Source: Thermanaeromonas sp. C210 (GTDB lineage Bacteria > Bacillota > DSM-521 > Neomoorellales > Neomoorellaceae). Taken from it: 64,000 nt of DNA. The translations under genes were made by a program, and so were the position numbers. Location of the stretch: contig NZ_BLWF01000001.1 in assembly GCF_013167955.1 (NCBI RefSeq), forward strand, positions 682,001 through 746,000, read 5' to 3'. Shown here one piece after another: positions 15,277 to 35,318 of the stretch. Numbering within the stretch: position 1 is the stretch's first letter; each line of letters starts with the position of its first letter. The notes below the pieces were generated by a model. It was not told the DNA's origin, searched no databases, and saw only the letters and a program-made list of their open reading frames with translations.

Positions 15277-15663
15277 ATGGGCGACAGAGGTCGCAGCCGT
15301 TTCGTAAATGAAGATCGCACCAGGCTGGAGAGTATGCGGGCGGCCGAATATCCCGGCGGGGTAGTTGTGGACCCGGTGCCTATTACCGCCGGGAGCGAAG
15401 TGACCGTTCTGTACTACGGCCTGCTGTCACAGTGCGGGGCCGACCAAGTCTGGATGCGGACGGGGTACGGCGACCCCCACAATTGGGAGGGCATTTACGA
15501 TTATCCCATGGAACGCACCGGCTACGGGTGGGTTAAAAACATCCGCATCTCGGAGGATTACGACCGCTTCCACCTTTGCTTCAAAGACAGCGCCAACAAT
15601 TGGGACAACAACAACGGCCTTAACTGGAGCTTTATCATTCACAAAGGTGATCGGCAGGTATGA
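15277..15663 (+). CDS. Small stand-alone starch-binding-like (CBM25/CBM53-type) protein
   Basis: The 128-residue protein has no catalytic domain. From about residue 34 it reads as a starch-binding module: PVPITAGSEVTVLYYG, then WMRTGYGDPHNW, an aromatic-rich RTGYGWVKNI segment and CFKDSANNWDNNNGLNWSF. This pattern of Gly-Asp-Pro/Trp and NNWDNN is typical of CBM25/CBM53 modules found in glucan-active enzymes and next to glycogen genes in Firmicutes. No signal peptide is present, so it is probably cytoplasmic and could bind glycogen; glgA lies 21 kb away. Start ATG 15277 follows GGGAGG. It marks the last gene before the insertion-sequence relic. Confidence 0.8.
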   Translation: MGDRGRSRFVNEDRTRLESMRAAEYPGGVVVDPVPITAGSEVTVLYYGLLSQCGADQVWMRTGYGDPHNWEGIYDYPMERTGYGWVKNIRISEDYDRFHLCFKDSANNWDNNNGLNWSFIIHKGDRQV

Positions 15664-18497: not shown

Positions 18498-18534
18498 AAT
18501 ACATCGTACAAAGTTGTGAAATCGGGGAAGGATG

Positions 18535-19281
18535 ATGTTGATGCGGGTAGATATCGAGACATGTATTGGATGCGGCGAATGCACTCATTACTGCCCCATG
18601 AATGCTTTGACATTGGAGAAAGATCATGTGACAGTAAACAAAGAAGAGTGTGTTGAGTGCAATATATGCTATTATTCAGGAGCTTGTCCCGTAGATGCGT
18701 TACAAAAAGAAGAGCTAACCTGGCCGCGTGCAGTACGTGGGGTATTCAGCGATCCCTTACAATCTCACAGCACTACCGGAGTTCCGGGGCGAGGCACTGA
18801 GGAAATGAAGACTAATGATGTGACCGGCCGCTTCAAGGAAGGATATGCGGGGATTGCCGTGGAATTGGGGCGTCCGGGCACAGGCGCCCGTTTCCGCGAT
18901 GTGGAAAAGGTGGCCATGACCATGGCCAGACTGGGTGTAAAATTCGAAGAAAAGAATCCAGTTACCAGTCTTATGATCGACAAAACTAGTGGAAAGCTTC
19001 GCGACGACGTGCTCGACGAAAAGGTGCTATCGGCTATTGTTGAGTTTGAGGTGCCCTTGGACAAAATGCAGGAAGTCTTAAAAGCGTTGCGGGAAGTTTC
19101 CTTCGAGATCGATACTCTCTTCAGTCTTGACCTCATCTGCCGGATAGATAAGAATAATGTGGCGCCGGCAGCCGAATTAGCCAGGGCGGCGGGATTCGAG
19201 CCCAGCTTGAACGGTAAAACTAATGTTGGTCTGGGTAGACCTCTGGCGGAAACGGGTAGGAAAGGTAGTGAAGTTAAATGA
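18535..19281 (+). CDS. Ferredoxin-domain protein with unassigned C-terminal domain
   Basis: The N-terminal 60 residues form a two-cluster ferredoxin domain: CIGCGECTHYCP, then CVECNICYYSGACP, giving two sets of four cysteines for [4Fe-4S] clusters. A linker (about 65-95) leads into a roughly 150-residue domain I do not recognise, with no cysteines apart from one late in the chain and an alternation of FEVPLDKMQEVLKAL-type helices. It overlaps the next gene by ATGA, so the two are translationally coupled and probably form one complex. Starts at 18532, 18535 and 18541 are all possible. Suggested role: electron delivery to the partner protein or to the dehydrogenase downstream (inference). No membrane segments or signal peptide. 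Confidence 0.8.
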   Translation: MLMRVDIETCIGCGECTHYCPMNALTLEKDHVTVNKEECVECNICYYSGACPVDALQKEELTWPRAVRGVFSDPLQSHSTTGVPGRGTEEMKTNDVTGRFKEGYAGIAVELGRPGTGARFRDVEKVAMTMARLGVKFEEKNPVTSLMIDKTSGKLRDDVLDEKVLSAIVEFEVPLDKMQEVLKALREVSFEIDTLFSLDLICRIDKNNVAPAAELARAAGFEPSLNGKTNVGLGRPLAETGRKGSEVK

Positions 19282-19907
19282 CTCATACATTACACCGGGT
19301 TGGTACTAAAGATAATTTAAGGCATGACTACGTTGTATTTGCTATGGCAGCGCAGGATATAAACCGGGAGGGAGCGGCCGAGAAACTGCGCAAGTTTCTT
19401 GAGATTCTCTTGAAATACAACCCTGTAAACTTTGGGGACATGAAGACGGGTAATGTTATTTCGGTGGGGCGCGATAAAGTGCTGGCCGGCATCCAGGATA
19501 ACTCTATAGTCCATGGTGTCTTTACTGACGTAGAGACCGTTGCGAAGTTGTTGAATGAGCTCAGAGAAGCCGACCTGGGGATGTCGGTAGTGGTTTCGGG
19601 CCTTTTAGAAAGTGTAGATGATTGTTGCCGGAAGGCCGGTCTACAGCGTCATACTGTCGAATACTCGCTGGGGGTGTGGGGTAAGGTTGACCGGTTGCCA
19701 GAAAGGGAAGTACTGGAGATCAGTACTATGTGTGGTCATGGCATGGTCAGTTTCAACCTTGTAAAGTATATGGTGGAGCAGGTGGAAAAGGGTAAGTTGT
19801 CACCGAAGGCTGCGGCCCGGCAATTAGCGGCTAATTGTCATTGTGGGGTGTTGAATCCTGAGAGGGCTGCAGAACTACTAGCCAAGATGGCCAACAAGGA
19901 GGAGTAG
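19278..19907 (+). CDS. Unrecognised conserved-looking protein coupled to the ferredoxin-domain protein
   Basis: A 209-residue soluble protein that I cannot assign to a family. It is coupled to the preceding gene (ATGA overlap) and lies 6 bp before the zinc dehydrogenase. Cysteine and histidine residues are grouped in a way that suggests metal or cluster binding: DDCCRKAG near residue 115, ISTMCGHGMVSFNL near 148, and ANCHCGVLNPERAAELL near 187. The C-terminal QVEKGKLSPKAAARQLA segment is a predicted helix. Possible roles are a small Fe-S enzyme subunit or a metallochaperone-like partner; the sequence does not decide. Confidence 0.75.
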   Translation: MTHTLHRVGTKDNLRHDYVVFAMAAQDINREGAAEKLRKFLEILLKYNPVNFGDMKTGNVISVGRDKVLAGIQDNSIVHGVFTDVETVAKLLNELREADLGMSVVVSGLLESVDDCCRKAGLQRHTVEYSLGVWGKVDRLPEREVLEISTMCGHGMVSFNLVKYMVEQVEKGKLSPKAAARQLAANCHCGVLNPERAAELLAKMANKEE

Positions 19908-21083: not shown

Positions 21084-21803
21084 ATGCAGTTTTCGTTTCT
21101 CGGGAATCTTGTGACAGGCAGTGGTCCGGTTCATACTCTTATGATAACCTTAGCACTAGTGGGCATGATTATAGCCGTTATCATTTGGGTTATGGAACTG
21201 AGTGGACGCACTATTACTTCTAAGGGAATTGTGAAGAACAATGTAAAATGGGATGCAACTACAGTGGCAACTATAGCAATCTGCGCTGCTTTATACATCG
21301 TAGGTAGGCCTATACAGTTTCAGTTTGTGCCAGGTATAGGAGGCTTCAATCCCACTCTTGCTCTGGCTCCAATACTTTCGGTCCTTTTTGGTCTTCCAGG
21401 CGCAATTGGGGTTACTTTTTCAATGCCAGTAGGTGATGCCATATCCGGAGCCTTGACAGTAGGATCGGTGGCTGGCTTCCTAAGCCATACGTTTGTAACA
21501 TGGCTGCCTTACAAGATGGTTAAGAATGCAGATTTCAAAAAGGCTAGTAATGTGATTAGCTTTTATGTTTGGGGTATTATAATTGGACCTATTATTCACG
21601 CTATAGTAATACCTGGTTGGCTCGACTTTACCCATACTGTTCCACCGGCGGTGGCCTGGGCGGGTGTTACCGCGAGTATAATCATTAACCACATGCTAAC
21701 TGCTGCTGTGGTATCAGCGATCTTAATGCCTATTCTTTATCCGATTGTTAAGAGCCGCGGCATGTATTGGCAAGACAGGTACCAAGTAGGCGAGGAAGAA
21801 TAA
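21084..21803 (+). CDS. ECF transporter substrate-binding (S) component, substrate unknown
   Basis: A 239-residue membrane protein with about six hydrophobic segments: roughly residues 17-40, 60-75, 88-112, 125-150, 162-185 and 195-220. It is followed by two EcfA-type ATPases and an EcfT protein, so it is the substrate-specific component of an ECF importer. It resembles the S component at 50368 in its central FNPTLALAPILSVLFGLPGAIGV-like segment (there RPAQIITTTFPLFFGPAGAWGV). No vitamin riboswitch precedes it. The neighbouring kinase and aldolase suggest a nucleoside- or sugar-like substrate (inference). Confidence 0.82.
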   Translation: MQFSFLGNLVTGSGPVHTLMITLALVGMIIAVIIWVMELSGRTITSKGIVKNNVKWDATTVATIAICAALYIVGRPIQFQFVPGIGGFNPTLALAPILSVLFGLPGAIGVTFSMPVGDAISGALTVGSVAGFLSHTFVTWLPYKMVKNADFKKASNVISFYVWGIIIGPIIHAIVIPGWLDFTHTVPPAVAWAGVTASIIINHMLTAAVVSAILMPILYPIVKSRGMYWQDRYQVGEEE

Positions 21804-21850
21804 AAACTGAGAATTAGCATTCACTACCACTAGGCAGCGGGGGATATGCC

Positions 21851-22720
21851 ATGAGTGATACAATCGTTGAGGTCAGGAATTTATCCTTTCGTTATATGGC
21901 TAGCGATGAATGGGTGTTAAAGGATATTAATTTAACTATAAATCGGGGAGAATTTGTGGGAATTATAGGACCTTCTGGGGCAGGCAAGACTACTCTTTGT
22001 TACTGTTTAAAAGGGCTCATTCCGCATACAATTAGCGGTAAAATGCGAGGAGAAATAAACATATGCGGTATGAATACCAAGAAATGCACACCCGCACAAC
22101 TATCCGAAAGGGTAGCTATGGTATTGCAAGATCCTGAGGCGCAAATAATTGGGTTGACAGTAATTGAAGATCTAGCCTTCGGACCGGAGAACCTGGAGTG
22201 GCCGCGCGAACGAATACTGGCTAAAGCAAGTCCTTTGTTACAAAAAGTGCGGCTGACCGGACTGGAGAATCGCGAAACTTATAGCCTATCTGGTGGTCAA
22301 AAACAGCGTCTGGCAATAGCAGGCGCTCTCATGATGGAACCTGAGCTTTTAATCTTGGATGAACCTACGTCAGAATTGGACCCTGTGGGGAGAGAAGAAG
22401 TATTTGCTACTATCAGACGTTTGCGAGACGAAAAAAGCATAACGGTCATAGTAGTCGAGCAGGCCGTAGAGGAGCTCGTTGAGGTGTGTGACCGTCTGAT
22501 CATTATGAGGGCTGGTGAAGTGATTGGCGACGATACGCCTGGGCAACTATTCCAAAGGAAGGATATTTTTGCTCGTGATAACGAAGGCGAAATTCCGGTG
22601 CCTCAGGTAGTAGAGCTGTTGCATATGTTGGAGGAAGCAGGCCATATAGCTTTGAATTCAGTGACACCTTACGAGAAAGAAGCTCTTGGGGTACTCAGTA
22701 CCCTTCTTGAGAGGTGCTAA
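21851..22720 (+). CDS. ECF transporter ATP-binding protein EcfA (first)
   Basis: A 289-residue ABC ATPase with Walker A GPSGAGKTT near residue 41, Q-loop QDPEAQIIG, signature LSGGQKQRLAIAGAL near 147 and Walker B LLILDEPTSELDP near 169. It pairs with the next ATPase to energise the S component and EcfT in the membrane. ATG 21851 follows CGGGGGAT. It ends 4 bp before the second EcfA start. Confidence 0.94.
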   Translation: MSDTIVEVRNLSFRYMASDEWVLKDINLTINRGEFVGIIGPSGAGKTTLCYCLKGLIPHTISGKMRGEINICGMNTKKCTPAQLSERVAMVLQDPEAQIIGLTVIEDLAFGPENLEWPRERILAKASPLLQKVRLTGLENRETYSLSGGQKQRLAIAGALMMEPELLILDEPTSELDPVGREEVFATIRRLRDEKSITVIVVEQAVEELVEVCDRLIIMRAGEVIGDDTPGQLFQRKDIFARDNEGEIPVPQVVELLHMLEEAGHIALNSVTPYEKEALGVLSTLLERC

Positions 22721-22724
22721 GTTA

Positions 22725-23558
22725 ATGGAAAGCACGGTTATTAAGACCGAAAAACTTTTTTTTAAGTATCCCAACTCCAGAGATTATGCACTAATAGATG
22801 TTAACCTAACAGTTAAGCAGGGAGATTTCCTCGCCATTATCGGGCAAAACGGTGCTGGTAAAACCACACTAACCAAGCACTTTAACGGCTTGTATAAGCC
22901 AACAGAAGGCAATGTGTTCATAATGGGTAAAGACATACGTGGAATGCCTACTACCGAGATCATTAAGTTGGTGGGTTATTGCTACCAAAATCCTGATCAC
23001 CAACTATTCTGTCGCACCGTATACGAGGAGGTAGCTTACGGACCTCGAAACTTGGGCTTGGCACCAGACAAAATTGACCGGAATGTGTCTGAAGCGTTAA
23101 AGGTTACTGAGCTAGAGGATAAGAAAGATCGCTATCCTTTTACTCTCGGTAGAGGCGAACGCCAAAGGTTGGCCATAGCCTCAGTTATTGCCATGGGTTC
23201 TCCAATCTTGATAGTAGACGAGCCTACGACGGGATTGGATAAACGGGGTGCCAGAAAAATAATGGATCTCCTTAAAAGTTGGAATCAGCAGGGTCATACG
23301 GTAATAGTGATTACCCATGATATGGCTATAGTAGCCGCGTACGTTCCCCGAACTGTAGTAATGTCCAATGGTAGAGTGATAGCTGACGGACCGACAAGGG
23401 AAATCTTAAGAGAGAAGGCTCTTCTAGATGCAGCCTTTATCAAGCAGCCCCAGATATTGCGTTTGGCTCGTGAGCTTGCTCCGTGGGGCGTACCAGATGA
23501 CGTTCTGACCTCGCAAGAAATGTATGAGGCGCTCCTAACACTGTGTAAAACATGTTGA
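22725..23558 (+). CDS. ECF transporter ATP-binding protein EcfA' (second)
   Basis: A 277-residue ABC ATPase: Walker A GQNGAGKTT near residue 41, Q-loop QNPDHQLFCRTV, and Walker B ILIVDEPTTGLDK. The signature motif is altered to LGRGERQRLA, a common asymmetry in ECF ATPase pairs where only one composite site has a canonical LSGGQ. Start ATG 22725 is preferred behind GAGAGGTG; the frame extends upstream over the previous gene without a site. It would form the heterodimer with the preceding EcfA. Confidence 0.94.
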   Translation: MESTVIKTEKLFFKYPNSRDYALIDVNLTVKQGDFLAIIGQNGAGKTTLTKHFNGLYKPTEGNVFIMGKDIRGMPTTEIIKLVGYCYQNPDHQLFCRTVYEEVAYGPRNLGLAPDKIDRNVSEALKVTELEDKKDRYPFTLGRGERQRLAIASVIAMGSPILIVDEPTTGLDKRGARKIMDLLKSWNQQGHTVIVITHDMAIVAAYVPRTVVMSNGRVIADGPTREILREKALLDAAFIKQPQILRLARELAPWGVPDDVLTSQEMYEALLTLCKTC

Positions 23559-23577
23559 GCATAAAGGGGAGACCAAG

Positions 23578-24381
23578 ATGCCTGTAGGGTACAGCATTTA
23601 TATCGAAAAGGATTCCTACATCCATAATAATCTAGATCCGCGTACCAAGTTGGTTTGGCTAGTAAGTATGTTTCTTTTGAGCCTGCTTTTTAATCACCCT
23701 GTACCCCTGGCTATATTTTTGCTCCTAGTCATAGGAATGGGGTTGCTGGCCCGTTTAGAGCTAAGAGCTCTAGTTCCCTTTTTGCTAGCGTCGGTATGGT
23801 TTCTTCTACTGGGGGTACTTATCTGGCCCTTTTATATCAAACAAGGTGCCGTTGCCTTTCACGTATTTGAGTATGAAATTACATGGGACGGAATTCTCTT
23901 CGGCCTTGCTATGGGCCTAAGGGTGGCCCTTATGGTGACGGCGGCGGCTGTTTGGATGATGACGACTTCTCCACAAAAAATGATGCTAGGGCTGTTAAGG
24001 ATGGGTTTGCCTTATAAAGCGGGGATGGCCTTATCATCGGCGATACGGTTTGTACCCCTGATTAATGCTGAAAGGTTAACCATTAGTGAGGCCCAAAGAG
24101 CAAGAGGACTTGATCTGGAAAGGGGTTCATCCTTCTCAAAGGCAATTAAGTATGTAGGTGTCATAGGCCCACTCCTACTTCGTAGTTTTGGTCTGACCCA
24201 ATCCCTGGCCGTTGCTATGGATTGCCGAGGATTTGGTGCAAGACCAAGGAGGACAAGTATCTTTGAAATAGGTTTTCAGGAGGTTGATAAATGGGTTATG
24301 TTTATTTGCTTATTAGCACTGGTAGGGGGAATTATATGCAGGATATTAGGCATCGGTATACTGGTAAAGGGTTACCTGTAA
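23578..24381 (+). CDS. ECF transporter transmembrane component EcfT
   Basis: The 267-residue integral membrane protein has the EcfT hallmarks: the N-terminal LDPRTKLVW motif near residue 21, several hydrophobic segments (about 28-60, 68-90, 108-130), and the coupling motif around SEAQRARGLDLERG near residue 165, whose ARG helix contacts the ATPases. It completes the S-A-A'-T module of this island. ATG 23578 follows GGGGAG. Confidence 0.93.
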   Translation: MPVGYSIYIEKDSYIHNNLDPRTKLVWLVSMFLLSLLFNHPVPLAIFLLLVIGMGLLARLELRALVPFLLASVWFLLLGVLIWPFYIKQGAVAFHVFEYEITWDGILFGLAMGLRVALMVTAAAVWMMTTSPQKMMLGLLRMGLPYKAGMALSSAIRFVPLINAERLTISEAQRARGLDLERGSSFSKAIKYVGVIGPLLLRSFGLTQSLAVAMDCRGFGARPRRTSIFEIGFQEVDKWVMFICLLALVGGIICRILGIGILVKGYL

Positions 24382-24435: not shown

Positions 24436-25407
24436 TTGGACACGAATCTTTTTCGGGGGAGGACGGTTTTTATCGGGCATCTCACCCTGGACGACGTCGT
24501 CCTGCCGGATGGACGCACGTACTTTGATAGCCCTGGTGGTGCGGCGCTTTATGCAGCCGCAGGCGCTATTCTATGGTGCAGTGAGACTCGAGGGGTGGGA
24601 CTCGTAGCACGGATCGGCCACGATTATAATAATGCCATTATTAGTAGACTCAAAGATCTTGGTCTGGACCTTACCGGCATAGTTAGAACAGATGATGCAA
24701 CTATTCATATCTGGGCTCTATATGACCGAAAAGGGTACCGCTACTTCATACCCCAAATAGGTGGAGGAAGATATGAACAATTGGCTCCAAGACCAGAAGA
24801 TATACCGGTTACATTTTTGAAAGAAGCGGTTGGTTTCCATGTGGCTCCGATGCCCCTGCCATCCCAGGAACAAATAATAGAAAAACTAGGCAGCACTGGT
24901 AAGGTGATTTTACTTGATCCTCACCACGAATGGGTTGAGCCTAGGCACTGGGAGCGCTGGCGAAGAATATTGCGCACCATTGATGTCTTTTTGCCCAGTG
25001 AGGATGAATTAGCGGGCCTTATGGGGCTTGACGGGCGACTCGAATCCATTGAGCACTATAAGGTGCACTTGCAAGAGTTGGCTGGTATGGGACCTCGGAT
25101 TGTTGCATTGAAACTGGGGGAAAGAGGTGTGCTACTTTATGATGCAGATAAAGGCGCGTTCTGCCACGTCCCCAGCGCTGCTGAAAAAGTGGTGGATGTT
25201 ACAGGTGCAGGAGATGCTTTTTGCGGGGGGTTTTTAGAAGGGCTGGTTGAAACAAATGATCCCATAACGGCGGCACTTTATGGAACTGTTTCGGCATCTG
25301 TGGCATTGGAGGATTTTGGAGCAATTTCGATATTACAGTATGATCGAGAAATTATTCGCAAGCGTCTAGCAAAGTTGAAAGAGATGTTGGCCGCTGCAGG
25401 CTGTTAG
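24436..25407 (+). CDS. PfkB-family carbohydrate/nucleoside kinase
   Basis: The 323-residue ribokinase-fold protein has an N-terminal FIGHLTLDDVVLPDG, the substrate-site SPGGAALYAAAG near residue 30 and the C-terminal anion-hole/catalytic motif VVDVTGAGDAFCGGFLEG near 251, including the base Asp. Family members phosphorylate ribose, fructose, tagatose-6-P, adenosine and similar compounds. TTG 24436 is used as start because GGAGG ends 9 bases earlier; the overlapping GTG is in another frame. Following the importer and preceding the SIS protein, it would trap the imported sugar or nucleoside (inference). Confidence 0.88.
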   Translation: MDTNLFRGRTVFIGHLTLDDVVLPDGRTYFDSPGGAALYAAAGAILWCSETRGVGLVARIGHDYNNAIISRLKDLGLDLTGIVRTDDATIHIWALYDRKGYRYFIPQIGGGRYEQLAPRPEDIPVTFLKEAVGFHVAPMPLPSQEQIIEKLGSTGKVILLDPHHEWVEPRHWERWRRILRTIDVFLPSEDELAGLMGLDGRLESIEHYKVHLQELAGMGPRIVALKLGERGVLLYDADKGAFCHVPSAAEKVVDVTGAGDAFCGGFLEGLVETNDPITAALYGTVSASVALEDFGAISILQYDREIIRKRLAKLKEMLAAAGC

Positions 25408-25436
25408 CTAAGAATTATGCAATAGGAGGTTCAGGT

Positions 25437-26564
25437 ATGGTTAATTCCGCCCTGGAGCTTATGCTAAAAGAAATTAGAGAGCAAACAGAACTCCTGGTGT
25501 CCGGAGTGGCGGACTTGGAGCAACAAATTAATAAAATTTTGGAGGCACCTGATTGGGTTAGACCTGAAAAAATCTATATTGTGGGGTGTGGCGACTCGTT
25601 TTATGCTGGACTGGCGTGCCAACAGGTTTTTGTAAGGTATACTGGAGTCGAAACGCAGGTTTGGCAAGCCTTGGAGTTCTCGCGTTATATCTACTCCAGT
25701 GTCAATCCTAGAAGCGTAGTGCTAGCAGTGTCCAATTCCGGCGAAGTGGCACGGACGGTGGAGTGTGTTGTTCGCGCAAATAGGCAAGGGGCGAGGACGA
25801 TTGGCATAACACGAAACACACGAAGCAGGCTGGCTGAACAATCGAAAAGCGTAGTGGAGGTTAAGATACCGTCGGTTGTAGGGGTGCTGCCTGGCACTCG
25901 TTCGTACCTGGGCTCACTGGTGGCTCTCGCAGCCTTTGCTTTGACCCTTGGAGAAAGGTTGGGTGCAATCACTCCAACAGAAAAACATGAGCTGAAAGCT
26001 TACCTTAAAGACTTAGCTGCTCCGATGCGGGCTACAATCGAGGCCAATTACATTACAATAGGTGAATATATACACAGCGAGGAAGTGGATATTTACCATA
26101 TTCTCGGTAGCGGACCCAACTACGGTACAGCACAATTTGGAACAATGAAGCTTCTGGAGGCGGCTGGATTTGTAAGTATACCCCAGGGTATAGAGGAGTG
26201 GGCTCATGCGCAGTATTTTGTAACGCGGCCAGGTACGCACGTTATCGTCCTCGCTCCTAAGGGCTGCTCACACGACCGCTCGCTAGAGATCATGCCGGCG
26301 GTTAAGACCGTTGGAGGGAAAGTGATCGCTGTGGCCGAAGAGGATGATGAAGAGGTTAAACAGCATGCGGATTTTGTCTGGGGTATTACCGGAATCCGGA
26401 ATATTAGAGAGGAATTCAGCCCGTTCCTCTATTCAGTGCCCCTGGAGCTCTTGGCCTACCATATTGCTGTTAAGTATAACACTGTGCCCTTAGACTTTGA
26501 GGGGAAGCCGTGGAAACGCGAAGAGAATTTTAGACAGATCTTCCATTCGCGCATTGTTGAATAG
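25437..26564 (+). CDS. Double-SIS-domain sugar isomerase/deglycase-like protein
   Basis: The 375-residue protein has two SIS domains as in the isomerase half of GlmS and in FrlB/AgaS-type enzymes. The first contains VGCGDSFYAGLA near residue 45 and LAVSNSGEVARTVE near 97; the second contains ILGSGPNYGTAQFG near 222 and IPQGIEEWAHAQYF near 245. SIS enzymes bind phosphosugars and cleave or isomerise aminosugar or glycated amine phosphates. Next to a PfkB kinase this resembles kinase/deglycase pairs for N-linked sugars. The start is ATG 25437 after AGGAGG. Exact reaction unassigned. Confidence 0.88.
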   Translation: MVNSALELMLKEIREQTELLVSGVADLEQQINKILEAPDWVRPEKIYIVGCGDSFYAGLACQQVFVRYTGVETQVWQALEFSRYIYSSVNPRSVVLAVSNSGEVARTVECVVRANRQGARTIGITRNTRSRLAEQSKSVVEVKIPSVVGVLPGTRSYLGSLVALAAFALTLGERLGAITPTEKHELKAYLKDLAAPMRATIEANYITIGEYIHSEEVDIYHILGSGPNYGTAQFGTMKLLEAAGFVSIPQGIEEWAHAQYFVTRPGTHVIVLAPKGCSHDRSLEIMPAVKTVGGKVIAVAEEDDEEVKQHADFVWGITGIRNIREEFSPFLYSVPLELLAYHIAVKYNTVPLDFEGKPWKREENFRQIFHSRIVE

Positions 26565-26589
26565 TTGAAGGGAGAGAGGAAGGTTCATA

Positions 26590-27393
26590 ATGGCAAACAC
26601 CGGTGGGAGACGTAAAACTGTTATAGGAATGGTAGGTCTTAAAGCGCTTCCCGGTACCTATATGTACCAAGGTGAAAGTGTTGAGGAGATCAAGAAGCTT
26701 GCTGTAGAGGATGCAATAAAGCTGTGCTCTGCCGGCTTTGATGGCATAATTATTCAAAACGTGAATGATCTACCTGGAAAGCGGAAAGTTGGTCCAGAGA
26801 TAGTGGCGTATATGGCGTCTATAGGCCAGGCAATACGCACAGAGGTGGGGCGCAATTGTCTTTTGGGTGTGAGCGTACTAAAAAACGACGGCGAAGCCGG
26901 CGTTGCCATAGCCCATGCTATAGAGGCGGATTTTGTAAGGCTTAAGGTTTATGTTGGAGCTATGGTTAGCGCAGAAGGGCTCATCGAGGGATGCATGGAA
27001 GAAGTGCTTGAGATGAAAAAGCGCATAGGAGCGCAGGTTGAACTATGGGCAGATGTACTTGATCGTACTGGCCGGCCATTAACCCAGGTTACGGTTGAGG
27101 AGATGGCAGAGCAAGCCTTTACCAAGGGGGGAGCCGATGCAGTGATTGTGACAGGTCGAAGTTTTGAGGAGACCTTGAAGTGGATCGAAACGACGCGCAG
27201 GAGCGTACCGGGTCGGCGGATACTAGTGGGAGGAGGGTGTACGCCGAATAATGTTGGAGCGGCATTGGAGTACGCCGATGGGATAATTGTGGGAACCTAT
27301 TTGAAGAGAGATGGTTGCATATATAACAGCGTGGATGACAGTCGGGTGCTAAGGTTCATGAAAGCTGTTACTGCTGCCAGGGATGCCAAATAA
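26590..27393 (+). CDS. BtpA/SgcQ-family TIM-barrel protein
   Basis: The 267-residue protein matches the BtpA family (BtpA of cyanobacteria, SgcQ of E. coli): GMVGLKALPGT at the N-terminus, GFDGIIIQNVNDLPG near residue 50, FVRLKVYVGAMV near 115, and a phosphate-binding-like ILVGGGCTPNNVG near 213. Family members have a triosephosphate-isomerase-like fold and an undefined enzymatic role; SgcQ lies in a sugar-catabolic operon. It lies between the SIS protein and DeoC with short gaps, supporting a role on a phosphosugar. ATG 26590. Confidence 0.88.
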   Translation: MANTGGRRKTVIGMVGLKALPGTYMYQGESVEEIKKLAVEDAIKLCSAGFDGIIIQNVNDLPGKRKVGPEIVAYMASIGQAIRTEVGRNCLLGVSVLKNDGEAGVAIAHAIEADFVRLKVYVGAMVSAEGLIEGCMEEVLEMKKRIGAQVELWADVLDRTGRPLTQVTVEEMAEQAFTKGGADAVIVTGRSFEETLKWIETTRRSVPGRRILVGGGCTPNNVGAALEYADGIIVGTYLKRDGCIYNSVDDSRVLRFMKAVTAARDAK

Positions 27394-27422
27394 GGTATAT
27401 GATTGAAGGGGGAAGGCAAGCC

Positions 27423-28085
27423 GTGCTGACTAGGAATGAGCTGGCAGCTCTAATAGACCACACCTTGCTGAAACCTACCGCTACGCTACCAGACATTAAG
27501 CGCCTTTGCGAGGAAGCACGGCAATTCCATTTTGCCGCTGTTTGTGTGAATCCTTGCTATGTGCGGATAGCCTCACAGGAATTAGCAGATACGCCTGTGA
27601 AAGTTTGCACAGTCATCGGTTTTCCGTTAGGAGCAACAAGTTCATTAATGAAGGCAATGGAGGCGGAAGTCGCTATTGCTGACGGTGCTCAAGAACTTGA
27701 TATGGTCATGAATATAGGTGCTTTTAAGCATGGTGATCTTAAGATAGTTGAGAAAGAAATAAGGCAGGTAACGGAGGTGAGTGAAGGCCGCGCTTTAGTC
27801 AAAGTGATCTTGGAGACGGGATATCTGAGCCGAGAGGAGATTGTCACTGCATGCCGCGTGGCGCAGGAAGCTGGTGCACAATTTGTGAAGACCTCAACAG
27901 GTTTTGGCCCCAGGGGAGCTACAGTAGAGGATATTGTTATTATGCGGGAGGCAGTTGGTCAATCTTTGGGGATCAAGGCTTCCGGTGGAATTCGGGAATA
28001 TGAAGTTGCTATCAGAATGGTTGAGGCCGGTGCGAACCGTTTGGGTACGAGCGCAGGGGTAGCGTTAGTATCATGGGAAGGGTGA
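27423..28085 (+). CDS. deoC: Deoxyribose-phosphate aldolase
   Basis: The 220-residue class I aldolase has IDHTLLKPTAT at the N-terminus, VCVNPCYV near residue 40, the VKVILETGYL strand near 133 and the Schiff-base lysine in FVKTSTGFGPRGAT near 157. It splits 2-deoxyribose 5-phosphate into glyceraldehyde 3-phosphate and acetaldehyde. GTG 27423 behind AAGGGGGA is preferred; ATG 27399 is an in-frame alternative. In this operon it may act on a related deoxy- or C-branched sugar phosphate made by the kinase and SIS protein. Phosphopentomutase (deoB) is 24 kb downstream. Confidence 0.94.
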   Translation: MLTRNELAALIDHTLLKPTATLPDIKRLCEEARQFHFAAVCVNPCYVRIASQELADTPVKVCTVIGFPLGATSSLMKAMEAEVAIADGAQELDMVMNIGAFKHGDLKIVEKEIRQVTEVSEGRALVKVILETGYLSREEIVTACRVAQEAGAQFVKTSTGFGPRGATVEDIVIMREAVGQSLGIKASGGIREYEVAIRMVEAGANRLGTSAGVALVSWEG

Positions 28086-28098
28086 GGTGAGGTAAATT

Positions 28099-28863
28099 AT
28101 GCGGCTCAAGAACAAAGTGGCGGTTGTGACTGGCGGGAGTTCAGGGATTGGCAGGGCCATTGCGATCAAATTCGCTGAAGAGGGGGCTAAAGTTGCAATT
28201 TTTGATGTTCAACGGGAATCCCGCCTTGAAAGCGAAAAACCCTGCACAGTAGAGGCAATCGAAACTATGGGTGGTGAGGCACTATACGTAAAAACCGACG
28301 TGAGCCGGACGGAAGAAGTAGAACGTGCGGTAGACCAGGTGTTGTCGGAATACCAACGGATTGATATACTTGTAAACTCAGCAGGCATTTTCATTCGGGA
28401 TCCTATTACTGAGGTTTCAGATGATGAGTGGGACCAAGTGATAAGAGTAAATCTATACGGGTGCTTTTATATGTGCCGCACCGTAATTCCGCATATGGTT
28501 AAGTCTGGATATGGCAAAATTGTCAATATTGCGTCTATACACGGCCTCCTTGGCACTGGGAATGCAACGGCCTATTGTGCCTCGAAAGGAGCCCTAATAA
28601 ATTTGACGAGGCAGTTGGCTGTCGATTACGCCAAGAAAGGCATAAGAGTAAATACAATAGCACCAGGAACAATTGTAACCGCAATGTCCAAGCCCTTCAG
28701 GGAGACGCCTGAGATTATGAAGGAGTACTTGACGCGCACGTTGCTTCCCCGTTTGGGGACACCCGAGGATGTAGCGTATGCTGCCTTGTACCTTGCTTCC
28801 TCGGAGTCGGACTGGGTTACGGGTCACTGCTTAGTGGTGGACGGTGGTTGGACTGCTTGGTAA
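28099..28863 (+). CDS. Short-chain dehydrogenase/reductase
   Basis: A 254-residue classical SDR: TGGSSGIGRA near residue 12 for the nicotinamide cofactor, LVNSAG near 93, the catalytic Ser in IVNIASIHG near 142 and Tyr/Lys in YCASKGAL near 157. The C-terminal GHCLVVDGGWTAW is typical. It could oxidise a sugar or a 3-hydroxy intermediate; the substrate cannot be read from sequence. ATG 28099 follows GGTGAGGTG, 14 bp after deoC. Confidence 0.92.
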   Translation: MRLKNKVAVVTGGSSGIGRAIAIKFAEEGAKVAIFDVQRESRLESEKPCTVEAIETMGGEALYVKTDVSRTEEVERAVDQVLSEYQRIDILVNSAGIFIRDPITEVSDDEWDQVIRVNLYGCFYMCRTVIPHMVKSGYGKIVNIASIHGLLGTGNATAYCASKGALINLTRQLAVDYAKKGIRVNTIAPGTIVTAMSKPFRETPEIMKEYLTRTLLPRLGTPEDVAYAALYLASSESDWVTGHCLVVDGGWTAW

Positions 28864-28876
28864 GGGGTGAGGAGGT

Positions 28877-30433
28877 TTGATTATTAAGGCTTTGGTAAAA
28901 CCGGCATACTATCAAGATTCGGTGGCGTTAATGTGGATTTCGAGACGGGTCCATGCTTGCGCGGGTGTGCACAAGGCAGCGGTCATGATGGCGACACCAC
29001 AGAATAAGGATATAATGCGGGAAGCCGGACTATTTACTGAGGCGGTCGCAAGAGCGGGGCCGGGCGACATGGTTATAGTGGTCAGCGCAGAAACTGAGGA
29101 GGCGGCTGCTGGGGCGCTGAGGGAGGCGGAGCAATGGCTGGCAAAGCCGGTAGGAGAGGAGAAAAACAGTACCACGTCCTCTCAGTACCGTCACTTAGCT
29201 GCCGGCATCCGTAGCTTGCCTGGTGCTGACGTAGCTGTAATTTCCGTACCTGGTGTTTATGCAGCAGCTGAATCTCTAAAGGCTTTGAAAAACGGACTCC
29301 ATGTGTTCCTGTTCAGTGATAATGTTTCGCTGGAAGATGAAATCCAACTAAAAAGGCTGGCCCATCAGCGAGGACTGCTGCTTATGGGACCCGATTGTGG
29401 CACGGCGTTTATTGGCGGGGTGCCCCTGGGTTTTGCCAATGCGGTACGGCGGGGGGGCATAGGTATAGTGGGCGCTTCGGGTACCGGCATGCAGGAGATA
29501 ATGTGTCTGGTTGACAGGTGGGGCGGTGGCATATCCCACGCCTTTGGTACTGGAAGCCGCGATCTGTCCATGGGGGTCGGCGGGATAACCACCCTAGACG
29601 CCCTGGAAATTCTAGCCAGAGATGAACAGACAAAGGTCGTAGTCCTGGTGTCCAAACCCCCGGCGCCACAAGTTGCCGAAAAGATACTCCGCCGGGTCGG
29701 CGGCATGGGCAAGCCGGTAGTCCTATGCCTGCTTGGCAATAATAATACAACTTCCCGGCGGGGGGTGTATATGGCCAGAACACTCGAGGATGCTGCTCGC
29801 CTAGCAGTAGTCCTTGAACGAGGAGAGGCGCCTGGGACTGATACCGTTGAAGGGAGTGTTCCGACCTTATCCCTGGACATAACGGGGGGCTATTTGCGAG
29901 GTCTTTTCTCGGGTGGTACCCTTGCAGAAGAGGCCTTACTCATCCTTCGCGCTTGCATCGGACGCGTTTACTCTAACCTTCCTGAAGGGGAGACGCTGGC
30001 AGACCCAAACTTCAGCAAGGAAAACACTATTGTTGATATGGGAAGTGATGAGTTTACCGTAGGCAGGCCGCATCCCATGATTGACTTTTCCTACCGCCTG
30101 GAGAGATTCCAGCGGGAGGTAGCTGACCCCAGAGTAAGCGTTATCCTAATGGATGTGGTATTGGGATTCGGTTCCCACCCGGACCCGGCAGCCGAACTTG
30201 TTCCCCCCATTAGTGAAGCGATCAAGGAGGCACGACGCACTAACCGTGACCTTAATATCGTGCTCAATGTGGTGGGTACTGATGCCGATCCTCAGGACTA
30301 TACCGCGCAGGTGACCAGACTGAAGACGGCCGGAGCTCTGGTGGCGCCTACTAACGCTCAAGCAGCCCTCATGGCGGCGAAATTGCTTAGTTCAGGTAGA
30401 GGTAAGCTGGAGTTGGAGGTTAACAAACAATGA
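28877..30433 (+). CDS. fdrA: FdrA-like protein (AllF-type, carbamoyl-transfer complex)
   Basis: The 518-residue protein matches FdrA/YlbE-cluster proteins, related to the CoA-binding/ligase fold of succinyl-CoA synthetase: GPDCGTAFIGGVPLGFAN near residue 172, GIVGASGTGMQEI near 195, and MDVVLGFGSHPDP near 424. In E. coli the fdrA-ylbE-ylbF set (allFGH) has been linked to oxamate carbamoyltransferase in anaerobic allantoin breakdown, which passes a carbamoyl group to phosphate for carbamate kinase. It starts at TTG 28877 after GAGGAGG and overlaps the next gene by ATGA. Homologues of all three parts are here, so a related reaction is likely; the substrate is open. Confidence 0.88.
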   Translation: MIIKALVKPAYYQDSVALMWISRRVHACAGVHKAAVMMATPQNKDIMREAGLFTEAVARAGPGDMVIVVSAETEEAAAGALREAEQWLAKPVGEEKNSTTSSQYRHLAAGIRSLPGADVAVISVPGVYAAAESLKALKNGLHVFLFSDNVSLEDEIQLKRLAHQRGLLLMGPDCGTAFIGGVPLGFANAVRRGGIGIVGASGTGMQEIMCLVDRWGGGISHAFGTGSRDLSMGVGGITTLDALEILARDEQTKVVVLVSKPPAPQVAEKILRRVGGMGKPVVLCLLGNNNTTSRRGVYMARTLEDAARLAVVLERGEAPGTDTVEGSVPTLSLDITGGYLRGLFSGGTLAEEALLILRACIGRVYSNLPEGETLADPNFSKENTIVDMGSDEFTVGRPHPMIDFSYRLERFQREVADPRVSVILMDVVLGFGSHPDPAAELVPPISEAIKEARRTNRDLNIVLNVVGTDADPQDYTAQVTRLKTAGALVAPTNAQAALMAAKLLSSGRGKLELEVNKQ

Positions 30434-31875
30434 ACGCAGGAATATTGAAACAAGGGCCCAAGGTGATAAATATTGGACTTGATTGGTTCTATTCTAGCGT
30501 CGTTCCCTTTACCAGTGCAGTTCATTTGGAGTGGCAACCTCCTGGCTGGGGAGACCCAGAGTTGGCGCGCATAGTGGCACAGCTTTCCGATGATATCGAT
30601 CCGGCCAGTCTTGGTGGCAAAATAGCGTCTGCCAACCAGGAGGCTTTAATCCGGATCACTTCAGCACGACCAGTTGTCGTAGACATGCTCCCGGCCAGGA
30701 AAGTAATTCCTGGCATGAGCAGCAATACTATTCTGCATGCAGGCCCACCTATAGAATGGGATAGGATGTGCGGGCCCATGCGCGGCGCTGTTATCGGTGC
30801 CCTTCTGTACGAGGGGATGGCTTCTTCACCTGATGAAGCAGAAAAACTTGCGGTAAGCGGTGAAATCGAATTTGCCCCTTGCCATTCGCGGAACGCTGTG
30901 GGGCCGATGGCTGGCATAATTTCACCTTCAATGCCTGTATGGGTAGTGGTTAACGAAACCTTTGGCAACCTTGCGTTTTCAACGATGAACGAAGGCTGGG
31001 GCAGAACCCTCCGGTTCGGCGCTTACGATGATAAGGTTATTGAGCGGTTAAAATGGATGGAGTACAGGTTGGCCCCCGCGATGAAATATCTCATCGAGAG
31101 GCTCCAGGGAATTGATTTGAAAAGTATTATTGCCCAGGCGTTGCAGATGGGTGACGAATGCCACAACCGGGATATTGCTGCTACTAACTTATTTTTCAAA
31201 AAGGCTGCTCCCGTGTTAGTAGACAGCGACCTGGACAGCAGCATGGTACGGGAAGTGATTTCTTTCTTAGGTAACCACGAGCACTTCTTTCTCAACCTCG
31301 CCATGGCCGCCTGTAAGGCCACTCTGGATGCGGCGGAGAATATTCCCTACTGCAGCGTCGTAACTGCTATCGCGCGAAACGGCGTAGAGGTGGGGATCAG
31401 GGTCAGCGGTTTAGGTGATAGATGGTTTACAGAAGAGGCCACCATACCACAAGGCCTTTACTTTCCTGGCTATTCCGAAAGCGATGCAAATCCGGATATC
31501 GGGGACAGCGCCATTACGGAAACTGCCGGCATAGGTGCTTTCGTAATGGGTACGGCTCCGGCTATAGTCCAGTTTGTGGGAGGTACTCCGGAGGATGCTG
31601 TGAGGCTCACCAGGGAGATGTACGAGATCACGGTTGGGACCAACGACAGCTACCGCTTGCCCAATATGTCCTTTATCGGAGCACCGACTGCAATTGATGT
31701 GCGCAAAGTGGTGGAAACTGGTATCCTGCCGATTATTAATACCGGTATAGCACATAAGGAACCGGGGCACGGGCTGGTGGGCGCCGGTATAGTAAGGGTT
31801 CCGCGGGGTGCTTTTGAGAAGGCGCTGCGCGCTCTGGCTGAAAAATATGCGCCGGAGGGACGAGTGCTGACTTAG
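30430..31875 (+). CDS. DUF1116 (YlbE/AllG-like) protein
   Basis: The 481-residue protein belongs to the DUF1116 family, the constant partner of FdrA. Recognisable segments are GCGPMRGAVIGALLYEG-like (MCGPMRGAVIGALLYEG near residue 112), FAPCHSRNAVGPMAGI near 152 and a C-terminal HKEPGHGLVGAGIVR. It overlaps fdrA by four bases and so is co-translated. In E. coli the homologue (AllG) is a subunit of the oxamate carbamoyltransferase system. The catalytic role of this subunit has not been read from motifs here. Confidence 0.88.
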   Translation: MNAGILKQGPKVINIGLDWFYSSVVPFTSAVHLEWQPPGWGDPELARIVAQLSDDIDPASLGGKIASANQEALIRITSARPVVVDMLPARKVIPGMSSNTILHAGPPIEWDRMCGPMRGAVIGALLYEGMASSPDEAEKLAVSGEIEFAPCHSRNAVGPMAGIISPSMPVWVVVNETFGNLAFSTMNEGWGRTLRFGAYDDKVIERLKWMEYRLAPAMKYLIERLQGIDLKSIIAQALQMGDECHNRDIAATNLFFKKAAPVLVDSDLDSSMVREVISFLGNHEHFFLNLAMAACKATLDAAENIPYCSVVTAIARNGVEVGIRVSGLGDRWFTEEATIPQGLYFPGYSESDANPDIGDSAITETAGIGAFVMGTAPAIVQFVGGTPEDAVRLTREMYEITVGTNDSYRLPNMSFIGAPTAIDVRKVVETGILPIINTGIAHKEPGHGLVGAGIVRVPRGAFEKALRALAEKYAPEGRVLT

Positions 31876-31890
31876 AGGAGGTGAGGATTG

Positions 31891-32970
31891 ATGAAAGAGG
31901 ACCTAAAACGGATTCTGACGGAACTGGTTGCTCTTAGTGGGGTATCGGGGTTTGAACAAGACGTGATTCGAACTGTGGCCAAGAAAATAAAGCCGTTTGC
32001 AGATAATGTTGAGATCGATAATTTCGGCAACGTGTATGCGGTGAAGGAAGGACTTCGGCCGGGGCCTACTCTTATGGTGGCGGCCCATGCTGATGAGGTG
32101 GGGGGCATTGTCAGCGAAATTCTACCCAACGGCTTACTTAGATTCCAAACGATTGGTATTGTGAGCGAGGCAGTACTCCCGGCAACCAGGGTGATAGTAA
32201 ACGGTATCAATGGTGTTATCGGCTCCGAGCCAGCACACTTAGAACGAAAGGCTGCTAGTGGTGAGGGGGGGTCCTATAGTCAGCTCTACATAGATATCGG
32301 CGCTAACAGTGATGTGGAGGTTAGGGAGTGGGGCATAGAGGTTGGGTGCCCTGTTTCCTACGCTGGGGCACTTATGGAGTTAGGAACTCCAGACCGGATC
32401 TGCGGTCATGCTATCGACAACAGGATAGGCTGTGCCATCGTAATTCGCCTGTTCCAAGAGCTTGGCACCCTGAGATTTGCCGGAAAAGTATACGGAGTAA
32501 TTACAGTGCAGGAAGAAACCACCATGAGTGGAGCCAGGATAGCAGCCGCTCGCCTTCAGCCCGACTGTGCCATTGTTCTGGACACAGTACCGGCTGCCGA
32601 TACTTCAGCGGAGGGTGCCGGCAAGTTCGGGATTGGTCGTGGCCCCGTAATCCAGCTGGCCGAGGGTGTACAGAGAGCTTATGTAGGCACGATAGCTCAC
32701 CCGGCGGTAAAGGGTGCAATCCTGAGGGCGGCAGCGGAAAGGGGTATTCGAGTACAGCTGGCCGCGGAAGTCGGACACTGGACAACCGATGCAGCTGGAC
32801 TTCACATAGCCGGTAAAGGAGTACCTACCGGATTTATCTCCATTCCCCGTCGTTACGCCCACTCCCCGGCTGAAGTTATGGACATAAATGATGCGGTAGG
32901 GGCAGTAGAACTACTGAAAGGGGTAATCAGCGGCCTTGGTACCCTTGACCTCCGATTCGTTTCCCTGTAG
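31891..32970 (+). CDS. M42-family metallo-aminopeptidase/hydrolase
   Basis: The 359-residue protein has the M42 dinuclear site: AAHADEVGG near residue 68, CGHAIDNRIGCA near 172 (bridging Asp), VQEETTMSG near 204 (catalytic Glu-Glu), VLDTVPAAD near 229 and the late RYAHSPAEVMD near 322. M42 enzymes are tetrahedral aminopeptidases or related amidohydrolases. ATG 31891 follows GAGGAGGTGAGG. It interrupts the usual fdrA-DUF1116-DUF2877 order, which suggests that it takes part in the same pathway, possibly removing an aminoacyl or amide group (inference). Confidence 0.9.
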   Translation: MKEDLKRILTELVALSGVSGFEQDVIRTVAKKIKPFADNVEIDNFGNVYAVKEGLRPGPTLMVAAHADEVGGIVSEILPNGLLRFQTIGIVSEAVLPATRVIVNGINGVIGSEPAHLERKAASGEGGSYSQLYIDIGANSDVEVREWGIEVGCPVSYAGALMELGTPDRICGHAIDNRIGCAIVIRLFQELGTLRFAGKVYGVITVQEETTMSGARIAAARLQPDCAIVLDTVPAADTSAEGAGKFGIGRGPVIQLAEGVQRAYVGTIAHPAVKGAILRAAAERGIRVQLAAEVGHWTTDAAGLHIAGKGVPTGFISIPRRYAHSPAEVMDINDAVGAVELLKGVISGLGTLDLRFVSL

Positions 32971-33016
32971 TTCAGCCGGGTGGCAGCAGACCGCCGCCTT
33001 CAGTGTAGGATGGAAG

Positions 33017-33898
33017 GTGAAAGCAATACTAAGGCTGCGTTCACACGTAGGCCGGGTCCATAGTGTGTTCTCCAGGGCCTTCAATGTGGAAACCCCTGAG
33101 GGGGAGGTATTTAGTGTTCTAGTTGGCGGGACGCGTTATTGGCTGGCCATAAACGTTCAACCCTGGCCAGGGCAGCTTAGGGTAAGAAAAGGGATGGTTG
33201 TCACTTACGGGGATAGCAAAATGGCTATACCTGATGCGGGGATAAGTATTTTACTGAAAGGCTCACCGGTGTGGAGGACTACAACCCTCGAGGTAAGGCT
33301 TGGTGCACGGCATGATGTTCTTCAGGCGCTTCGCATTGCCGCAGCCATTGGGTGCCGTTTCGGTAACTTGCAAGGGTTCGGCGGATTGCTAAGACATTTT
33401 TGCAGTGAGGGAAGCACACCTTCCGCAGGGGCCGAAGTACCATTTTGGTTGGGCCGGGGGTACAGAGCGGCAGAGGATTTGTTGATGGCACTTAGACGGA
33501 GAGATCCCTGGTGCGCAGAAAAGGCTGCCAGGGAGCTGGTGGGTCTGGGGCCGGGTCTCACGCCGGCCGGCGATGATCTGCTGGCGGGGCTCATAGGTGG
33601 CTGGTGGTGGCGGAAGAAAGCCTACGGTGGGCATGGGGGCCTCCCACAGCACTGTCTGAGAACAGTGGCGGCGGTTGCACGCGAATGCACTAACGTTTTT
33701 GGCTATCGGGAGATTTACGGTGCTACGGTGGGAGAGCTGCCTGAGGCTGCCCTGGAAGTTGTTACTGCTATATTAAGAGGCAACATAGAGTTGGCTTCTC
33801 GAGTTTTGGAGCTTTTGGCGTTGGGATCTTCGTCAGGAACCGATATGCTAGCTGGCATTTGCCTGGCCCTGGCATCGGTGGAGGATTTAGTCAGCTAG
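33017..33898 (+). CDS. DUF2877 (YlbF/AllH-like) protein
   Basis: The 293-residue protein has the DUF2877 core: LVGLGPGLTPAGDDLLAGLIGG near residue 178 and a C-terminal LGSSSGTDMLAGICLAL. It is the third element of the FdrA/AllFGH set. GTG 33017 is preferred as start (AGGATGGA before it, 46 bp after the M42 gene); the frame is open further upstream but would overlap the peptidase. Together with FdrA and DUF1116 it should form the carbamoyl-transfer complex. Confidence 0.85.
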   Translation: MKAILRLRSHVGRVHSVFSRAFNVETPEGEVFSVLVGGTRYWLAINVQPWPGQLRVRKGMVVTYGDSKMAIPDAGISILLKGSPVWRTTTLEVRLGARHDVLQALRIAAAIGCRFGNLQGFGGLLRHFCSEGSTPSAGAEVPFWLGRGYRAAEDLLMALRRRDPWCAEKAARELVGLGPGLTPAGDDLLAGLIGGWWWRKKAYGGHGGLPQHCLRTVAAVARECTNVFGYREIYGATVGELPEAALEVVTAILRGNIELASRVLELLALGSSSGTDMLAGICLALASVEDLVS

Positions 33899-33926
33899 CC
33901 TATGGTAAGTGCTGGGAGGGGGAGCC

Positions 33927-35318
33927 ATGCTAGATCTAATAATTAAAAATGGTAAAATAGTCGACGGGAACAACATTGTCGAGGGAGACATTTTGGTGGC
34001 TGGCGGGAAAGTAGTGGGGGTGACACGGAGAGGGGAAATTGATAGAGCCCGGAGGGTATTAGATGCTGAAGGTCGTTACGTTTTACCAGGGGCTATCGAC
34101 AGCCATTCGCATCTCGGCCAGATGCCCGGAGCAGGGCAGCCTAAAGTGCAGGGTCAAGAGGAAAACTTTATGACCGAAAGTTCGTCCGCTCTGTACGGTG
34201 GTGTAACCAGTGCCCTGAATTATATCTTTACCCAGGAATCATTGGAAAAGGTGTTTCCTCGCTTTATTGAACTGGTTAAGAGACACAGTCTAATTGATAT
34301 AAAGTTCCACGGAGCCTTGATGAATCAGGTTCACCTGGACAATATCGAGAGATATATTCACGATCTGGGCATTACCTCTTTTAAAATTTTTTTACCTTAT
34401 AAGGGTGCAGAGGCCGCGAACTTAGGTGGATTGAGCAGTCTCAATGATGGTCAGATATTGGAGGCATTTGTCAAACTAAAGGAGTATGGCGGCTTGCCCA
34501 TGATCCATGCAGAGAATCCTGAACTCATTGATTACTATTCAAGGCGGTTAACCGATCCAACTAGACAGGATATGGCCTCTTGGGAGGCGACCAGGCCGGG
34601 GATCTGTGAAGGTGAAGCTGTGGCCAAGGTTCTCTACCTTGCGCGAAAGGTCGGATGTAGAATTGGCATCGCCCATGTGAGCTCGAAGGAAGCTGTAGAG
34701 TGCATTCAAGAAGCCAGGGACCAGGAGGTCGTGTTGGAGACATGTCCGCATTATCTAGCCCTTACCGTTGAGGCAGGCCTTGGCAGTTTGGGTAAGGTAA
34801 GCCCCCCGATCAGACACCATGATGACAGGGAAAAAATTTGGGAGGCGGTTGAAAAACAGGTTCCGGTTATCATCGGATCGGATCACAATTCCTGGGTCAC
34901 GGCCCACAAGCAAGAATTGTGGAGTGGGCTGGCCGGACTCCCGGGCAACGCTGTGATAATGGCGGTGCTGTTTACGGAAGGCGTAAACAAGAGGGGCCTT
35001 TCTCCTCTTGATGTGGTTCGGGTTAGCAGCTATAATGCGGCCAAATTATTTGGGTTGTTCCCAGCCAAAGGGACTCTGGCGGTGGGCAGCGACGCCGATA
35101 TTACCATCATGGAAACCGGAATTAAGAAATACCTTGACCCTAGCGAGACCGGCTCTATAGTTGATTATACTCCCTACCAGAACTATCTCTTTACAGCTTG
35201 GCCTTATGCGGTTATAGCACGCGGAGAGGTCATGGTCTTGGATGGAAGAAGGGAGAATAGTGAGCACCGGGGAAACTGCCTCAACACCTTTTGCCTTAAC
35301 ACTGTTTGTTCCACGTAG
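33927..35318 (+). CDS. Dihydropyrimidinase/hydantoinase-like cyclic amidohydrolase
   Basis: The 463-residue amidohydrolase has the dinuclear-metal set of hydantoinases and allantoinases: GAIDSHSHLGQ near residue 55 (HxH), the lysine to be carbamylated in TSFKIFLPYKG near 150, HAEN near 196, a further metal His in GIAHVSS near 250, and the late Asp in GSDHNSW near 320. Such enzymes open cyclic ureides. ATG 33927 follows GGGAGGGGGA. With the FdrA set it gives a plausible route: ring opening to a carbamoyl compound, transfer to phosphate, then ATP via carbamate kinase. The tail after residue 445 (HRGNCLNTFCLNTVCST) is unusual and may be an extension into flanking DNA. Confidence 0.9.
   Translation: MLDLIIKNGKIVDGNNIVEGDILVAGGKVVGVTRRGEIDRARRVLDAEGRYVLPGAIDSHSHLGQMPGAGQPKVQGQEENFMTESSSALYGGVTSALNYIFTQESLEKVFPRFIELVKRHSLIDIKFHGALMNQVHLDNIERYIHDLGITSFKIFLPYKGAEAANLGGLSSLNDGQILEAFVKLKEYGGLPMIHAENPELIDYYSRRLTDPTRQDMASWEATRPGICEGEAVAKVLYLARKVGCRIGIAHVSSKEAVECIQEARDQEVVLETCPHYLALTVEAGLGSLGKVSPPIRHHDDREKIWEAVEKQVPVIIGSDHNSWVTAHKQELWSGLAGLPGNAVIMAVLFTEGVNKRGLSPLDVVRVSSYNAAKLFGLFPAKGTLAVGSDADITIMETGIKKYLDPSETGSIVDYTPYQNYLFTAWPYAVIARGEVMVLDGRRENSEHRGNCLNTFCLNTVCST

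Follow-up and report, generated by a model that had tools for sequence, protein, structure and literature searches.

Overlapping genes for a ferredoxin fusion and a Cys/His protein

Two plus-strand genes share the letters ATGA at positions 19278 to 19281 of the window, i.e., the whole 64,000-nucleotide stretch of DNA that was analyzed. The first, here called P1 (18532 to 19281), encodes 249 amino acids (aa), and the second, P2 (19278 to 19907), encodes 209 aa, giving a combined size of about 460 residues. As the equivalent ATG is used by most relatives, P1 may truly start at the ATG at 18541 rather than at 18532 or 18535. A PucR-type regulator is encoded 5' of P1 (16727 to 18412, plus strand) and a Zn-dependent dehydrogenase directly 3' of P2 (19914 to 20990, plus strand). 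Both the gene overlap and the location between these two neighbors had been recorded in the initial annotation and were confirmed.

P1 consists of a 2x[4Fe-4S] ferredoxin domain (18541 to 18720, plus strand) and an unassigned alpha/beta domain. Residues 5 to 57 match 4Fe-4S dicluster models (Pfam Fer4_21, E value of 3e-9) and include two CxxCxxCxxxC(P)-type motifs, and in Foldseek the N-terminal domain matches the fold of 2[4Fe-4S] ferredoxins. The proposal that a two-cluster ferredoxin is joined here to unrecognized sequence holds, with an unassigned part of approximately 165 residues. Outside the ferredoxin domain, conservation is highest in the motif GRGTEEMKTNDVTGRF (18787 to 18834, plus strand), and the K, N, G, G, and P residues of the C-terminal motif NGKTNVGLGRPLA (19210 to 19248, plus strand) are invariant. 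The motifs kept among the homologues read GRG..E.K.N..T, (E/D)xGRP, and K.N.G.G.P.

P2 has an invariant LHR motif (19290 to 19298, plus strand) and carries two motifs of putative metal or cluster ligands, C152-G-H154 (19731 to 19739, plus strand) and C187-x-C189-G-x-x-N193 (19836 to 19856, plus strand). H125 and the stretch SLG..G....LP are kept as well. The residues that had been taken for ligands are retained in homologues: the eight ferredoxin cysteines of P1 (C..C..C...C, repeated) and C152, H154, C187, and C189 of P2 were invariant in 24-row alignments and nearly so among 52 unique P1-P2 pairs. Archaeal copies of both proteins carry the same conserved residue set. The P2 motifs were originally read as CGHG and CHCG, which was right in part. 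CGH is conserved, but the glycine after the histidine varies, with archaeal copies reading CGHH; likewise, CxCG is conserved, but the histidine between the two cysteines is not. CxCA replaces CxCG in 2 of the 52 copies, both of which retain the two cysteines. Judged from this pattern, the three cysteines and one histidine of P2 may serve as ligands of a metal or of an Fe-S cluster.

The initial annotation knew no family for either unassigned part, and this was borne out in Pfam, NCBIfam, and PDB sequences. Neither P2 nor the portion of P1 beyond the ferredoxin domain matched a Pfam or NCBIfam model above the curated cutoff, and neither P2 nor the C-terminal domain of P1 matched a PDB chain by sequence or profile. 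PDB sequence matches of P2 to phospholipase C-beta (E value of 0.19) and of the P1 C-terminal domain to glycerate kinase (E value of 0.019) were at chance level. Weak Pfam matches of P2 (SHOCT-like, FeoC, PrpR_N) stayed under the cutoff and involved only 2 to 3 of 24 members. The idea that P2 and the P1 C-terminal domain are homologous halves was rejected as well (hhalign probability of 0.4%). A split 6-hydroxynicotinate reductase (Hnr in Eubacterium barkeri) was also considered, but profiles gave it no support and nothing pointing to it turned up among plasmids or in the literature.

P1 and P2 were modeled with AlphaFold as single subunits. In the P2 model (pLDDT of 93.6, pTM of 0.90), the N-terminal half is alpha/beta, and the ligand motifs lie in the second half, which is helical. 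For P1 (pLDDT of 86.3), the best-conserved motifs outside the ferredoxin domain fall in lower-confidence stretches of the model, as would be expected if those motifs fold against P2. A match to a known enzyme pair was not recovered, as no PDB entry scored below an E value of 1e-3 in Foldseek with either model and no significant match to a solved structure extended over most of either chain. The top matches of P1 were mostly ferredoxin domains. The best match of P2 (E value of 0.043) was partial and of low TM score, and the resemblances of P2 to PII-like SbtB and to dimeric alpha/beta-barrels, likewise partial and with E values above 0.04, were discarded.

Distribution and pairing

P1-P2 pairs occur as adjacent, codirectional genes with the conserved Cys/His set, and more than 60 such loci were found across Bacillota, Bathyarchaeota, and Asgard-type archaea. 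P2 was present in 7 of 61 related genomes, one of which holds 9 copies, and 25 of 398 genomes in a sample of the phylum were positive. A scan of genome contigs added Bacillota metagenome-assembled genomes, Bathyarchaeota, and "Candidatus Borrarchaeum." In the phylum of the Borrarchaeum genome, 12 of 99 genomes were positive, and in several of these P2 is shorter, at about 197 aa; the phylum of a Bathyarchaeota genome yielded 3 positive genomes of 250. Plasmid records yielded no credible match to the pair.

The two genes occur together far more often than expected by chance. Eight genomes searched for both contained 30 P1 and 30 P2 genes in one-to-one pairing, the extra P1 rows in this count being pieces of one split match plus one fragment. 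At the loci that were read, 64 of 68 P1 matches and 64 of 67 P2 matches were adjacent to their partner on the same strand. Several seemingly lone P1 or P2 genes proved to be artifacts of open reading frame (ORF) calling, in which antisense ORFs are preferred in GC-rich DNA; after tblastn, seven exceptions to pairing were left, among them fragments, what looks like a duplicated P1, and one case at the end of a contig. Furthermore, distances among P1 C-terminal domains correlated with those among P2 proteins (r of 0.79 over 52 unique pairs, against a maximum of 0.19 in 2,000 permutations), a correlation that in part reflects the shared ancestry of linked genes. P1-P2 is a real and apparently undescribed family.

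A Bathyarchaeota contig carries a tandem P1 duplication (locus L025, 7326 to 7877 and 7933 to 8694) with a truncated first copy, possibly an assembly artifact. Three P1 copies of one genome (L029, L030, and G041:C1:2263160-2263639) have identical profile scores, which suggests recent duplication of the unit.

Genomic context and proposed function

On the tree, the copy from the window groups, with full support, with its two nearest relatives (L020 and L021), in which the same Zn-dehydrogenase directly follows P2 and a related PucR gene is present in the locus. The window cluster continues into a probable importer (21084 to 24381, plus strand). The genes for it encode a membrane protein that Pfam does not recognize, followed by two ABC ATPases and a membrane protein similar to CbiQ, a gene order from which an ECF-type transporter is probable. 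The first of these genes (21084 to 21803) encodes a predicted membrane protein of 239 aa with no Pfam or NCBIfam match and is a candidate for the ECF transporter S component. What appears to be a segment for the catabolism of sugars or nucleosides lies in the same gene run (24436 to 28863), with a PfkB kinase, a SIS-domain protein resembling half of GlmS, a BtpA family protein, a DeoC/LacD aldolase, and an SDR protein. This segment is followed by a ureide-type catabolic island (28877 to 35318) encoding FdrA, AllG, AllH (oxamate carbamoyltransferase type), an M42 peptidase, and an amidohydrolase of the dihydropyrimidinase/allantoinase type. A similar set (dihydropyrimidinase, M42-like, AllG-like, FdrA) adjoins P1-P2 at another locus (L087). 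On the other side of the pair, a 128-aa ORF (15277 to 15663) resembles, by eye, a stand-alone carbohydrate-binding module, not joined to an enzyme.

Across the family, importers of organic acids are frequent neighbors. With identities in some clusters assigned by reading of the sequences, the gene runs of the 52 unique pairs contained genes for the tripartite tricarboxylate transporter TctABC in 28 cases, GntR regulators in 13, CooF-like ferredoxins in 11, Zn-dehydrogenases in 8, AOR in 7, mini-CooS or FNOR in 7, dehydrogenases of the 3-hydroxyisobutyrate type in 4, and TRAP transporters and M20 proteins in 3 each. In eight genomes, chosen for having the pair, 13 of 44 TctA genes lay within 5 kb of a pair, where 0.6 would be expected; viewed from the pairs, 17 of 30 had a TctA gene nearby. 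A citrate-symporter-type carrier (2HCT) was found at one locus (L101), and MFS carriers accompany the pair in Asgard-type archaea. DcuS/MalK-type sensor kinases also recur, as do hydroxyacid enzymes (aconitase, lactate racemase LarA, Ldh_2, 2-hydroxyacid dehydrogenase, PdxA) and ferredoxin-linked redox partners (AOR, mini-CooS, CooF-like proteins, PadH-like FNOR, KorAB). Several operons consist of a transporter, a regulator, and the pair, with nothing else. The outcome of this neighborhood survey, which the initial annotation had suggested, fits a catabolic enzyme, and the "new Fe-S-dependent reaction" that it envisaged for the pair stays a candidate.

The most economical reading is that of a two-subunit enzyme acting on an imported acid. 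We consider the chances about even that P1-P2 is a ferredoxin-coupled, two-subunit metalloenzyme for imported (hydroxy)carboxylates with a Cys3His site in P2. The analysis established the pairing and covariation of the two genes, the conservation of the ligand residues, the linkage to transporters, and the lack of recognized homologues; that the proteins form a complex and catalyze a reaction, which clusters they hold, what class of substrate they use, and which way electrons flow are what we infer in this scheme. P1 and P2 would be the two subunits of one enzyme, with P2 as the catalytic subunit in which C152, H154, C187, and C189 would hold a metal or an Fe-S cluster beside the substrate. 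The C-terminal domain of P1, with its invariant Arg, Lys, and Asn residues, may help to close the site and bind the carboxylates of the substrate, while the two [4Fe-4S] clusters of P1 would shuttle electrons between the P2 site and a cellular carrier; a ferredoxin could fill this role, as could a CooF/FNOR pair or a dehydrogenase acting as partner. The enzyme would act on an organic acid, often a hydroxy acid, taken up by the coencoded importer. In the clade of the window, the pair would work with PucR, the zinc dehydrogenase, and the probable ECF-type importer. As an explanation for the presence of up to nine paralogous copies per genome in separate settings, we propose that the paralogues differ in substrate. 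Two observations run against this reading: no single reaction fits AOR, mini-CooS, dihydropyrimidinase, and aconitase as neighbors, and what surrounds the pair in the window suggests ureides or sugars instead of a plain hydroxycarboxylate.

The presence of exactly three invariant cysteines and one invariant histidine in P2 would also suit an Fe-S lyase or isomerase similar to aconitase or class I fumarase. The three cysteines would then hold a [4Fe-4S] cluster with one open iron serving as the Lewis acid toward a hydroxycarboxylate; the ferredoxin clusters of P1 would be structural or would merely tune the P2 cluster. Carboxylate carriers, the hydroxyacid context, and operons with no other recognized enzyme agree with such a lyase. 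However, the eight-cysteine ferredoxin domain is intact in all copies, which suggests electron transfer, and P2 has no similarity to a known hydro-lyase. As AOR, mini-CooS, CooF, FNOR, and KorAB recur near the pairs, a redox step is favored over a simple lyase, although short of proof, and we regard the lyase as unlikely.

Alternatively, the pair may have no substrate of its own. As P1 contains a ferredoxin domain and a subset of operons encodes AOR, mini-CooS/FNOR, or KorAB, P1-P2 might instead be an electron adaptor that joins these enzymes or the Zn-dehydrogenase to the ferredoxin pool. Indeed, the tree of copies groups by partner type, with 16 changes compared with 28.5 after shuffling (none of 200 shuffles was as low), i.e., subclades follow the partner; this grouping speaks for the two-subunit enzyme as well. 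Nevertheless, mini-CooS and AOR operons have a CooF-like ferredoxin of their own, and the adaptor leaves no role for the conserved Cys3His site of P2. Moreover, a pure adaptor is disfavored because in the operons made up of transporter, regulator, and pair there is no oxidoreductase to serve, and no enzyme candidate other than the pair itself. We rate this role as unlikely, slightly more so than the lyase.

A nonenzymatic role, either as a cofactor assembly factor or as a redox or ligand sensor of the operon, appears improbable. The resemblance of the P2 motifs to metal ligands would be compatible with it, as would the adjoining transporters and regulators and the special cofactors required by AOR, CODH, and LarA. 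However, the neighbors have no cofactor in common and many operons encode no cofactor enzyme, nine paralogues in one genome are unlike an assembly factor, and domain searches found no DNA-binding or signaling domain in P1 or P2.

Relation to known systems

In anaerobes, we know of no first enzyme for many of the organic acids that are imported by TTT and TRAP carriers. A pair that repeatedly lies beside such carriers, in up to nine copies per genome, and is sometimes the only recognized enzyme candidate points to one undescribed chemistry serving many substrates. It is possible, though somewhat short of an even chance in our estimation, that P1-P2 represents a new class of metalloenzymes in anaerobic Bacteria and Archaea. 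The catalytic subunit would have no characterized relative among enzymes, and the step performed on imported (hydroxy)carboxylates would be coupled to ferredoxin. The novelty lies in the protein family itself, as its setting in anaerobic organic-acid catabolism is ordinary. No description of such a gene pair was found in the open literature; it may have been noted before as a hypothetical family. The small size of the paired proteins makes expression and assay feasible.

In sequence and fold, residues 5 to 57 of P1 are a domain of the bacterial 2[4Fe-4S] ferredoxin type (PF14697 in Pfam, with its relatives), but ferredoxin families lack the fused stretch of about 165 residues, and P1 is coencoded with P2. 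With aconitase and class I fumarase, P2 shares three conserved cysteines and a hydroxycarboxylate setting, whereas there is no similarity in sequence or fold and P1-P2 has a ferredoxin domain. AOR and 2-oxoacid:ferredoxin oxidoreductase offer a proposed likeness, i.e., a substrate site coupled to ferredoxin-type clusters and encoded in organic-acid operons. However, neither P2 nor the C-terminal domain of P1 is similar to them in sequence or fold, and homologues of their catalytic subunits occur only as separate neighboring genes.

The operons of mini-CooS, CooF, and FNOR have been described in work on Ni-CODH diversity (PMC8776680, PMC6344411), and the passages searched in these two papers make no mention of a P1-P2-like pair. 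In some genomes, P1-P2 lies between mini-CooS and FNOR in operons of the kind presented there for clade G Ni-CODH (PMC8776680), whereas the majority of pairs have no CODH nearby, and CooS, CooF, and FNOR are not homologous to P1 or P2. At two loci (L072, 10244 to 11515, and L098, 7555 to 8823), Prismane/CODH-family proteins of 422 to 423 aa, shorter than the mini-CooS of other loci, are encoded in operons that also hold CooF, FNOR, P1-P2, and TctABC. For the mini-CooS operons, P1-P2 represents a testable partner.
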